Below are positions 21,590 through 25,335 of a stretch of 33,388 nucleotides of DNA, piece by piece (positions within the stretch are counted from its first letter, which is position 1; each line of letters begins with the position of its first letter). The stretch spans positions 40,081-73,468 of the forward strand of contig JAUNOF010000002.1 of the NCBI GenBank assembly GCA_030537215.1. The letters are read 5' to 3'. The notes below the pieces were generated by a model that had not been told where the DNA came from, did not search any database, and was given only the letters and a program-made list of their open reading frames with translations. The stretch is from Lachnospiraceae bacterium (lineage in GTDB: Bacteria > Bacillota > Clostridia > Lachnospirales > Lachnospiraceae). Made by a program: the position numbers and the translations under genes.

Positions 21590-24337
21590 CTAGTATACCG
21601 TGAATGATTCTTCTTGTAAATACGTCCAATACCGCAGCTTCTCCCCATCGGTATGAAGAAAAACCGCTCCCTGCTCCCCGGTTCCCAAGATCTCACATCC
21701 AGCCTGTTCCAGCCGTTCCACTGCTTCCCTATGAGGATGCCCATAGGAATTTCCTTTTTGATAAGAGATTACTGCCAGATTCGGCTGTGCAGCATCCAGC
21801 AGCTCTTCACAATTGGAATACCGAGAGCCATGATGGGCTGCCTTCAGAACCTGAATCCGAGCAAGCTGCTCTCCCTGCCGCGCTGCAAGCCTTCGCTCTC
21901 CTTCCTCATCAGCATCTCCTGTTAGCAGCATATGAAAGCTTCCATAATCAACCTGCAGAATCAGAGACTGCTGGTTCCGGTCAGAAGCATCGATCTCCTC
22001 TCCCTTCTGGGGATAAAGGCAGGTCAGCTCACACGTTCCCGCCTGAATCCAATCCCCTGCATCCATATACCAGATCTGCGTCCCCGCCATTACAGCCGCC
22101 TGAATCAGCCGATCATATGCGCTGTCTCCTTTCCCAAGCTCCGGCAGAACAAGATGCCGGATCGTGATTTCCTCACATTCCTCCAAAAGATATCGAAGGC
22201 CGCTGATATGATCTTCATCTCCATGACTGACCAAAGCAAGATCGATCGTCCCGATTCCGCAGGATTTCAGATATGGCTCCAGCCGGTTTTTCCCTAGTTT
22301 TTTCTCACTGGTGCTGCCTCCATCCACCAGGATTACCGCCCTTCCTGGATGCCCTGTTCTTCCCTGAAACACCGCCTTCCCTGCTGTGTCTGCGCCGGAC
22401 TCCTGATTGCAGCTGATCCGGCTATTATTTTTTCTGCCAATCTCTCCGCTGCTTCTTTCACTGATCTCTCCGCCGTTTCCTTCATCAGCCAATTCCATCC
22501 CCCGCATCTGGAGCATTCCGCCCTCACACTGAATCACGATTCCATCTCCCTGCCCTACATCTAAGAAAACAGCATCATATCCCTTTTGACGAAGAGGGCT
22601 CAGACAGATGAAGCAGCCAATCGTCCCTGCAAGCAGCATACCAAATGCAATCCATCCACTTTTTCTTGTTTTTATCTTATCTTTTTTATTTTTTCTCCCA
22701 CTTAACACAATATCTCTGTCATTTTTATGGATTCTATCCCCACTTTCTCCACTCTTTTTCATGATCTCCCTTATTCCAAGAACCATCGCTGTCAAAATCC
22801 CGTAATAAACAGCAATCTGAATCCATTTCGGACGTCCAAAAACAGCCTGACCTCCTGGGAATCGGGCGAAAATCTGGCAGAGCACCTGGTACCACCGCAA
22901 GATATAATGCCCACTTCCCACTGCAGCAGTTCCCAGGGACGGGCTTAAAAAACCGGCAGCAATTCCAAAAAGTCCGGAAAGCACCACATATCCCATCAAG
23001 GGCACCACCAGCAGATTCAAAAAAATCCCGTACACCGGGTACTGAAAGTAATGATACAGTACAATCGGACAGGTCATCAGCTGAACCGATAAGCTGACCA
23101 GCAGTGTTTTCTCCCAGCTCCTATGTACCTTCAAACTCCTGACAAGTTCTTCCCCCAGCAAACCGATTCCCAGTACTGCCCCAAAGGAAAGCTGAAATCC
23201 GCTCTGTCCAATCAGCAAAGGATTTGCCCAGGAAAGCAGCAGCGCTGCCAGGGACAATGCGGAAAGCAGATCATAGGTTCTCCCCAGATATGCTGCCAGA
23301 AAGGATGCCAGCAGCATGATAATCGCCCGGACCGCAGAGCCGGAACCACCTGTCATCACCCCATAGCTGACGATAACCGCACCTGCCGCGCTCCCGGCCA
23401 GACCATACCCCATGCCGGATTTTCGAAGCAGGCGGTATAATCCCATTCCAATCATAGATAAATGCAGTCCGCTGATAGCTAAAATATGAGAGATTCCATT
23501 TTTCTGGTAGAGGTCACGAATCTCCGAATCCATCCCTCCCTTCTCCCCCAGAATTGCAGCCTGGAAAATTCCCCGGTCAGCCGCCCCGCAGATTTGCTCC
23601 AGGATCTGACTGCACCGGCAGCGGAACCGATATAATCCATCAAAATACGGCGAACCCCTTCCGTTCGCTCCTCTGCTTTCCAGCCGGTCTGCAGAAAGTG
23701 ACATAGAAATCCCCTGGGAGCGATAGTATTGTTTAAAATCAAACTGACCAGGATTGCGGGCCGGTTGAAAGCATCCTGCCTCGCCTTCCGCCTCAGCCCA
23801 CTGACCGATCTGAAGTTTCTTGACCGCAGACAAAATCTCTGCCGGTTCCCCTTCTACATAAACCAGAACCTTTCCGTATTCCTGGGTTTCCAGCTCCACT
23901 GCATCAGACCATGTGGTTTCCAGGATGCGGGTCACCTGCCCGGCTATCAGAATCCATTCTCCTTCCTCCGGACAGAACGCTTCCAGACGATTCCACCGTT
24001 CTATCACCCGCCCCATCCGAAAGCACCCGCTTAAAAAAGCGCAGAAAAGCAGAAGTATCCACAAACCACTGTACATACTTCTGCTTTTTCCGCAAATTTT
24101 TCTTTTCCATCCCCAGAAATCGGTCTCGATGGCCGCAGGGAACAAGGCATCAGCAAAGCCTGCTGCTGCCGCAATAACAATCACAATGATTGCAATCAAT
24201 CCTGCTGCAAACACTGCCGCAGCTATTGCTGGAATATGGCTTCCAACTGTCTTTTGATTTCCTCCACTCTCTGCGCACCAGACACATACCTCTCCAAGTA
24301 CGAAGCCAATTGCTGCTGCAAAAAGCGGTCGTTTAAT
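21590..24337 (-). CDS. comEC: ComEC/Rec2 DNA-uptake channel protein, probable ATT start
   Basis: ComEC forms the membrane channel, and probably the nuclease, that brings single-stranded DNA into the cell. Domains in order: N-terminal membrane helices and a DUF4131-type domain, the Competence membrane domain with GISHILAISGLHLSM, and a C-terminal metallo-beta-lactamase domain with SHGDEDHISG and AAHHGSRYSN. Within the last there is a hydrophilic insert of about 60 residues between QCEGG and VILVDGG. The usual first codon would be GTG at 24214, but the frame stays open upstream and reads IKRPLFAAAIGFVLGE, the typical ComEC N-terminus, right after AGGAGG (24346-24351). No ATG, GTG or TTG exists there; ATT at 24337 (or 24340) is the likely start, giving about 916 residues. 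Confidence 0.9.
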   Translation of the reverse strand: MKRPLFAAAIGFVLGEVCVWCAESGGNQKTVGSHIPAIAAAVFAAGLIAIIVIVIAAAAGFADALFPAAIETDFWGWKRKICGKSRSMYSGLWILLLFCAFLSGCFRMGRVIERWNRLEAFCPEEGEWILIAGQVTRILETTWSDAVELETQEYGKVLVYVEGEPAEILSAVKKLQIGQWAEAEGEAGCFQPARNPGQFDFKQYYRSQGISMSLSADRLESRGANGRGSPYFDGLYRFRCRCSQILEQICGAADRGIFQAAILGEKGGMDSEIRDLYQKNGISHILAISGLHLSMIGMGLYRLLRKSGMGYGLAGSAAGAVIVSYGVMTGGSGSAVRAIIMLLASFLAAYLGRTYDLLSALSLAALLLSWANPLLIGQSGFQLSFGAVLGIGLLGEELVRSLKVHRSWEKTLLVSLSVQLMTCPIVLYHYFQYPVYGIFLNLLVVPLMGYVVLSGLFGIAAGFLSPSLGTAAVGSGHYILRWYQVLCQIFARFPGGQAVFGRPKWIQIAVYYGILTAMVLGIREIMKKSGESGDRIHKNDRDIVLSGRKNKKDKIKTRKSGWIAFGMLLAGTIGCFICLSPLRQKGYDAVFLDVGQGDGIVIQCEGGMLQMRGMELADEGNGGEISERSSGEIGRKNNSRISCNQESGADTAGKAVFQGRTGHPGRAVILVDGGSTSEKKLGKNRLEPYLKSCGIGTIDLALVSHGDEDHISGLRYLLEECEEITIRHLVLPELGKGDSAYDRLIQAAVMAGTQIWYMDAGDWIQAGTCELTCLYPQKGEEIDASDRNQQSLILQVDYGSFHMLLTGDADEEGERRLAARQGEQLARIQVLKAAHHGSRYSNCEELLDAAQPNLAVISYQKGNSYGHPHREAVERLEQAGCEILGTGEQGAVFLHTDGEKLRYWTYLQEESFTVY

Positions 24338-24384
24338 AATGATTTCCTCCTGTTGTCCAACTTAAAAAGAATCCTTCTGCTGCC

Positions 24385-25335
24385 CTACGGATCCGTCAGC
24401 AGATAATCCATATTTTCTTCAAATAGTGTTTCCAGAGAAATGGTATCCCGGAACATCACAGCCGGAGATCCATTGACAGAAAGCTGAACCCGATTGACCG
24501 TAGTCAACTGAGTCAGAGAATTTACAATGGAATAGATAGGGATCTCCTCTTTTACTCCCAGGCTGTTGTTTAAAAAAGCAGAATCAAAGTTCAGATAGCA
24601 TACATTGTCCGTCACTGATATATTCAGCAGCTTGGTTTCCGGCGGAATTGTTGCACTGCATCCCGTCTTTTTGGGGCCTTCCAGCAGCTGCTCTACGATC
24701 AGCCGCTCCATGGAGGTGTTGATGCTGTGGATCACCTCCCGTTTTTCTTCCACCAGGTACTGCCCCGTTTCATCGGCAAAATATAGTGTCAGCTCAGACT
24801 TTTCAAATGCATTCACATCGCTGATATTGTCCATAAAATCTCCGGCTGCCATCATCCCTACCGGATTGCCGGAGGCATCCATCAAGGGCTGCTCTCCGCT
24901 GTAAATGTTCAGAAATTCTACCCCGTCAATCTGTGACAATGTCTTGGTCAGCGCCGCTCTGCACAGAATTTCCTGGCTGGCACTCATAAATGTATAGTTT
25001 GCATCAAAATACAGATACAGCACATTGGAATCCCACTGGAACCGCTGCAGCTCTGTTTTGGAAGAAACCGGAGATTTTGCATCCAGATCAGCGGGTACTG
25101 TCACCAATTGCTGGTACAGCTCCCGGATCAGATCCAGACCTTCCTTAGATTCCGGATGATACTCTACTGGTATCAGCCTGGTCATCCCGGTATTTACATA
25201 GTATACAATGTACTGATTTTCCTCCGGGCAGAATGTGGGGGGCTCCTCTTTCCGGCAGCCCACCAGCCACAGCGCCAGCAGCGTCAGCGCCGCGGTCAGG
25301 AAAATCACTTTCCTTTCTTTCCTTACTCGTTCCAT
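24385..25335 (-). CDS. GerMN-domain lipoprotein
   Basis: A 316-residue exported lipoprotein: basic N-terminus, hydrophobic segment and lipobox LWLVGC (Cys27). Two GerMN-like repeats follow, about 60-165 and 190-300, with the pattern LYFDANYTFMSAS and, in the second, CYLNFDSAFLNN plus the ending IYSIVNSLTQLTTVNRVQLSVNG. GerM in Bacillus works in sporulation and spore germination on the wall or at the engulfing membrane. The start overlaps the end of the histidine kinase gene by 13 bases, so the two are translated from one mRNA, resembling the LpqB/MtrB-type kinase-lipoprotein pairing. The direct role is inferred. Confidence 0.88.
   Translation of the reverse strand: MERVRKERKVIFLTAALTLLALWLVGCRKEEPPTFCPEENQYIVYYVNTGMTRLIPVEYHPESKEGLDLIRELYQQLVTVPADLDAKSPVSSKTELQRFQWDSNVLYLYFDANYTFMSASQEILCRAALTKTLSQIDGVEFLNIYSGEQPLMDASGNPVGMMAAGDFMDNISDVNAFEKSELTLYFADETGQYLVEEKREVIHSINTSMERLIVEQLLEGPKKTGCSATIPPETKLLNISVTDNVCYLNFDSAFLNNSLGVKEEIPIYSIVNSLTQLTTVNRVQLSVNGSPAVMFRDTISLETLFEENMDYLLTDP

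Follow-up and report, generated by a model that had tools for sequence, protein, structure and literature searches.

Where does the DNA-uptake gene comEC start when the start listed for it has no ribosome site? This question was raised by a 33,388-nt stretch of a Lachnospiraceae genome (GCA_030537215.1, contig JAUNOF010000002.1, positions 40,081 to 73,468), here called the window. An earlier note on this DNA had proposed an ATT codon, and the proposal was followed up in the window, in the 11 genomes of its genus and in other genera of the family.

Start codon of comEC

On the minus strand, comEC followed a gene with a Germane domain (Pfam; 24385..25335). A perfect AGGAGG Shine-Dalgarno (SD) site was located at 24346..24351, a place conserved across the genus, and after it the comEC frame read AA ATC ATT ATT AAA CGA CCG CTT. 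No in-frame ATG, GTG or TTG was found between this site and a GTG at 24212..24214, and the only initiation-like codons at usable distance were ATC, ATT and ATT, as the earlier note had described. The frame upstream of the GTG was indeed open for 41 codons and encoded a ComEC N-terminus (I-K-R-P-L-F-A-A-A-I-G-F-V-L-G-E). The GTG, the conventional start in the list of open reading frames, was rejected, as the note had argued, because it had no ribosome site and would cut off this conserved N-terminus. A TTG at 24360 was dropped, being in another frame and before the SD site. comEC thus most likely starts at the AUU at 24335..24337, 8 nt behind the AGGAGG and homologous to the single ATT, ATA or ATC of relatives; the first ATT (24338..24340, 5 nt from the AGGAGG), an alternative start, was not at a homologous position. 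The coding sequence from the preferred ATT would span 21590..24337 (minus strand), with the Pfam domains DUF4131, Competence and Lactamase_B.

The note had left to be checked whether relatives keep ATT or have ATG. comEC was present in all 11 genomes of the genus, with AGGAGG as SD site (GAGGAG in one). Nine of them had only ATT, ATA or ATC about 8–9 nt behind the SD site, one had TTG, and one had an ATT at 8 nt plus an ATG just 2 nt from the AGGAGG. An in-frame stop stood right upstream of the start in several members, leaving no other comEC start in those genomes. In several relatives the stop of the upstream gene lay no more than a few bases from the comEC start, and translational coupling to that gene is possible there. 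In other Lachnospiraceae genera, found by protein similarity alone, comEC also often had ATT, ATA or ATC (AUH in the message). TTG or ATG occupied the same position in other genera. Among 79 distinct Lachnospiraceae 5′ ends, all from holders of the motif described below and weighted to well-sampled branches, the start was AUH in 39, TTG in 19, ATG in 20 and GTT (unassigned) in one; the spacing to the SD site was 8 nt in 28 of the 39 AUH cases. In one locus (L044, genome G292) the homologous start position was a GTT, spaced 8 nt from GGAGG, and no other start was apparent.

An assembly error, or initiation of comEC at GTG 24214 or at an ATG inside the gene, was considered highly improbable. The window genome is fragmented (257 contigs) and codon 10 is ATG in some relatives, but AUH was found at the same place in independent assemblies and in one isolate, Hungatella hathewayi WAL-18680 (ATT). 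The codon-10 ATG was rejected as a start, as other genus members have ATT, GCG, ACA or GCC in its place and other genera have TTG or ATG at the AUH position itself. Sequencing error can be discarded as the cause of the AUH start in general. Same-genus infC had AGGAGG, 9 nt and ATT in 9 of 9 loci where this could be read, so AUU initiation is to be expected in these cells. The relatives, the isolate and infC together gave the near-cognate start strong support.

The mean predicted anti-SD pairing of comEC was −10.5 kcal/mol before AUH, −8.8 before TTG and −5.1 before ATG. For AUH versus ATG the difference had p = 1.7e-9, a value that overstates the independence of related sequences, though its direction is clear. 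This inverse relation of SD and codon strength suggests a tuned rather than a minimal initiation rate. The idea that the weak codon keeps ComEC levels very low was therefore half right: weak codons went with strong SD sites and ATG with weak ones.

A conserved core in comEC, the Tad operon and radC

Directly behind the start, an RNA hairpin of 65 nt was predicted from about +10 of the message (24264..24328, minus strand; outer arms 24328-24318 and 24274-24264; −31.1 kcal/mol, z −3.8), and it was present in all 11 genus members. Within it lay a 12-nt core (GUACUUGGAGAG, +37 to +48; in the window GTACTTGGAGAG, 24290..24301, minus strand) which is conserved across genera. It was first noticed in loci fetched by protein similarity. 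The core was nearly invariant across genera, though in the rest of comEC the shares of GTA, CTT, GGA and GAG were just 0.18, 0.21, 0.37 and 0.54. A scan of about 85,000 species with GGNTTYGTACTTGGAGAGGTA gave 45 matches, all with labels of Lachnospiraceae or related Clostridia and all read as comEC, and a covariance model of the hairpin found comEC starts in several other genera. The fold was weaker in the wider family (mean z −1.7 over 40), so conservation is stronger for the pairing site than for the stem as a whole. Covariation within the genus-level alignment of the hairpin was uninformative, the sequences being too alike, and an Rfam scan gave no family above the gathering cut-off, only a sub-threshold CRISPR-repeat match.

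An AUH start did not strictly need the core. Two starts without the exact core, L276 (G191, ATA) and L279 (G024, ATT/ATA), showed that AUH reaches beyond the core-holding branch, and many core-holders had TTG or ATG.

At least three copies of TTYGTACTTGGAGAG were found in 9 of the 11 genus genomes and two copies in the other two. A longer segment of the window comEC, GGCTTCGTACTTGGAGAG (24290..24307, minus strand), was the exact complement of a hairpin loop in a Tad-pilus operon of the same genome (G000:C41, L110 1207-1224). This antisense copy belongs to the 5′ end of a TadE-like gene, where a hairpin takes up the gene's SD site and AUG in its stem and has the copy in its loop; the loop carries CUCUCCAAGUACGAAGCC, the complement of GGCUUCGUACUUGGAGAG in comEC, and the arms are AAAGGAGGTGAAGTCCCATGCCCTTTTTT and AAAAAAGGGTGTGGGACTTTGCCTCCTTT. 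A free small-RNA gene was dropped as an explanation of this second copy, since it sits inside the TadE-like gene. The operon encoded an ATPase, T2SSF-type proteins, DUF5702, the TadE-like protein, a prepilin peptidase and an FHA protein; the secretion ATPase, inner-membrane T2SSF-type proteins, prepilin peptidase and pseudopilins of a Tad pilus were thus all found. T2SSE, T2SSF and DUF5702 were over their Pfam cut-offs, Peptidase_A24 was below its own (E 9e-5), and the TadE-like assignment came from a VEAALAL segment only, with no Pfam hit. A third copy, in sense orientation, was found in the leader of radC (PF04002; G000:C28 in the window genome). The predicted fold of the radC leaders paired most of the SD site in the majority and placed the motif in or close to the loop.

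Across 64 loci the longest uninterrupted stem of the Tad hairpin had a median of 25 bp, versus 11 bp in shuffled sequences (shuffled maximum 17). The ATG lay inside the 5′ arm in 53 of the 64, and an SD-like site in or adjoining it in 43. The stem was mostly 20–35 bp, with the gene's own AUG buried and usually its ribosome site too. This hairpin reached far beyond the core-holding genera, throughout the family, and DUF5702, encoded next to the hairpin gene, was found in 286 of 299 family genomes.

Some loci departed from this arrangement. In L111 (G008:C19) the ORF opened by the hairpin ATG was merely a short one, and the TadE-like gene followed downstream with an SD site and ATG of its own; the hairpin here resembles a leader element in its own right. 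In L282, L284, L286 and L294 (G045, G095, G154 and G200) the Tad loop was without CUCUCC and held an SD-like AAAGGAG(A)-AGGATTCG, in some of them followed by an ATG within the loop; radC matches were short in these genera.

Covariation between loci of one genome

Sequences flanking the core were oriented to the comEC strand, with one genome per genus, most of the genomes compared being metagenome assemblies. In permutation tests, which ignore phylogeny, the flanks of comEC and tad had 5.07 pairable bases in 28 genera versus 2.07 by permutation (sd 0.33, p < 5e-5), and those of radC and tad 5.0 versus 1.8 in 9 genera. Within the genus of the window alone the flank covariation did not reach significance (p = 0.10), which is what relatives this close would be expected to show. 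For 28 genera with radC retrieved through protein similarity, the best complementarity between radC leader and Tad loop scored 29.9 versus 20.0 (sd 0.8, p < 2e-5), and the 15 core-less genera alone gave p = 2e-5. Complementary runs were 12–23 nt long for comEC and tad and up to 20 nt for radC and tad.

Compensatory change between the partners was also seen in single genera. G098 had an identical core change in comEC, radC and tad, and G253 a CTGCT flank common to comEC and tad; in G191 (ATA start) the comEC core was lost and a diverged complementary site kept. Core-less radC-tad pairs were found in G166 (GTAATCTGGAAGAGAGCTGT with ACAGCTCTCTTCCAGATTAC), G041 (TCTGTCCGGAGAGTT with AACTCTCCGGGCAGA) and G277 (TACGGAGAGCATAA with TTATGCTCTCCGTA). 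A good radC-tad match was not found in G272, G132 and G139, although the hairpin was present. No excess of comEC-tad pairing was found in core-less genera, G191 excepted, and comEC pairing was confined to a branch of the family.

A motif common to three functionally related loci, in either orientation and with a nearly invariant core in the genera holding it, might instead be bound as DNA by a competence regulator or sigma factor, the folds being incidental. The core is in fact conserved more tightly than pairing alone would require, which counts against pairing. But loci of one genome change together in their flanks and, in some genera, in the core itself, also where the motif of a genus is another sequence altogether, and the motif, for the most part in a hairpin loop, sits within a gene or directly ahead of a ribosome site. 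Such co-change within a genome is the signature predicted for RNA-RNA pairing and not for a protein site in DNA, and a DNA site was judged improbable.

The same covariation bears on the possibility that the AUH start alone is regulatory, giving low, IF3-tuned ComEC, while the complementarity to the Tad and radC mRNAs has no function in the cell. AUH starts without the core (G191 and G024) are compatible with this, as are the near-cognate starts that limit output in S. aureus (PMC13009471) and, through IF3, in Streptomyces sigR (PMC5472188). A complementarity kept by covariation across genera needs selection on the pairing, however, and this explanation too was thought unlikely to hold.

Predicted regulation of DNA uptake

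The reading preferred as a whole, and considered quite probable, combines an AUU-start comEC, trans pairing with the Tad hairpin and a further copy in radC. The first ~75 nt of the comEC coding region would fold into a hairpin displaying GGCUUCGUACUUGGAGAG, which would pair in trans with the hairpin loop of the Tad-pilus mRNA; co-folding of comEC and the Tad loop fragment of the window genome gave −71.0 versus −48.2 kcal/mol apart, a predicted gain of ~23 kcal/mol. RNase III could act on a stem as long as that of the Tad hairpin, and release of the loop as a small RNA by this enzyme is a candidate step. The Tad RNA, whole or cut, may then bind the comEC and radC mRNAs and set their translation. 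Binding would open the start-site structures and so tie synthesis of the uptake channel and RadC to transcription of the pilus operon. The AUU start would hold ComEC output down and make it sensitive to IF3, as for sigR (PMC5472188) and infC.

Both targets have structure at the start site which pairing could open, and activation was therefore slightly favoured over repression or a change in mRNA stability as the sign of regulation. That pairing is real but acts the other way, with comEC and radC repressed or co-degraded with the Tad mRNA, or acting on that mRNA, is a serious possibility to which we give somewhat under an even chance. In its favour, RNase III might be drawn to long duplexes, the hairpin locks away the start of the Tad gene itself, and the pairing of Listeria hly and prsA2 mRNAs acts on stability and not on ribosome binding (PMC8079631). 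Most radC leaders pair much of their SD site, however, and the comEC stem begins near +9, so that loop pairing would more naturally open both; moreover, pairing in the Tad loop does not reach the Tad stem.

More broadly, the hairpin of the Tad mRNA would both lock its own gene and supply a base-pairing RNA that controls a DNA-uptake and recombination regulon, an RNA-coordinated uptake that we regard as rather likely. This regulon would comprise radC family-wide, comEC in one branch (often with AUH) and single further candidates in some genomes. The core also stood shortly upstream of two genes that by eye resemble Rpn/PD-(D/E)XK-type nuclease genes, in L113 (G008:C66) and L257 (G123:C21); the L113 gene also seems to be without a normal start (AAAGGAGAATACCCATA). 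In L245 (G291:C1:2624186) a UvrD-like helicase gene starts 35 nt behind the core, which may mark another target or be due to chance.

No description of a Tad/radC/comEC pairing network was found in Rfam or the searchable literature, and literature searches on comEC with AUU, DUF5702 and Lachnospiraceae with Tad competence found nothing. The control of DNA uptake in Lachnospiraceae, which are major gut bacteria, thus appears undescribed in the searchable literature. The present analysis predicts, at the level of sequence, that Tad pilus, ComEC and RadC form one regulated system, and adds a conserved group of AUU/AUA/AUC starts to the few known. The complementary sequences in tad, radC and comEC are exchanged from one genus to the next, so compensatory mutants would offer a direct test of the pairing.

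Comparison with known systems

Near-cognate starts and mRNA-mRNA pairing are both known; their combination, with a family-wide hub, is new as far as these tools show. In E. coli, infC and pcnB start at AUU. As in these, the in-frame codons at proper distance in comEC were AUH only, in the window and in nine of the 11 genus genomes, and the unusual start was kept in relatives. In S. aureus, infC starts at AUA, cvfC1 at AUU and ccpN at AUA; these genes have extended SD sites and about 10% of the output of AUG in poor medium (PMC13009471). All of these resemble comEC in having AUU or AUA behind a strong or extended SD site, a start that limits initiation in relation to IF3 in them and would do so in comEC. 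comEC differs from them in encoding a DNA-uptake protein, in the conserved RNA element downstream of its start and in the many genera that switch between AUH, TTG and ATG. Streptomyces sigR, with a GTC start under IF3 repression, likewise has a non-canonical start conserved across the genus and important for protein level, but it is another codon in another gene, and the available text describes no trans-pairing RNA (PMC5472188).

Trans pairing of two mRNAs of one pathway, coupling their expression, is described for Listeria hly and prsA2 (PMC8079631, citing Ignatov et al. 2020). There a 3′ UTR pairs with a distal 5′ UTR and acts on stability, whereas the pairing in Lachnospiraceae would join the loop of a start-masking hairpin to the start regions of two or more genes and would extend over a bacterial family. 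In Liberibacter crescens, DNA uptake involves joint action of the Tad pilus and ComEC; this is a distant phylum, and no RNA link was found in the available text (PMC8513845). With Tad/ComEC uptake in L. crescens and hly-prsA2 pairing in Listeria, each element of the arrangement proposed here has a precedent.
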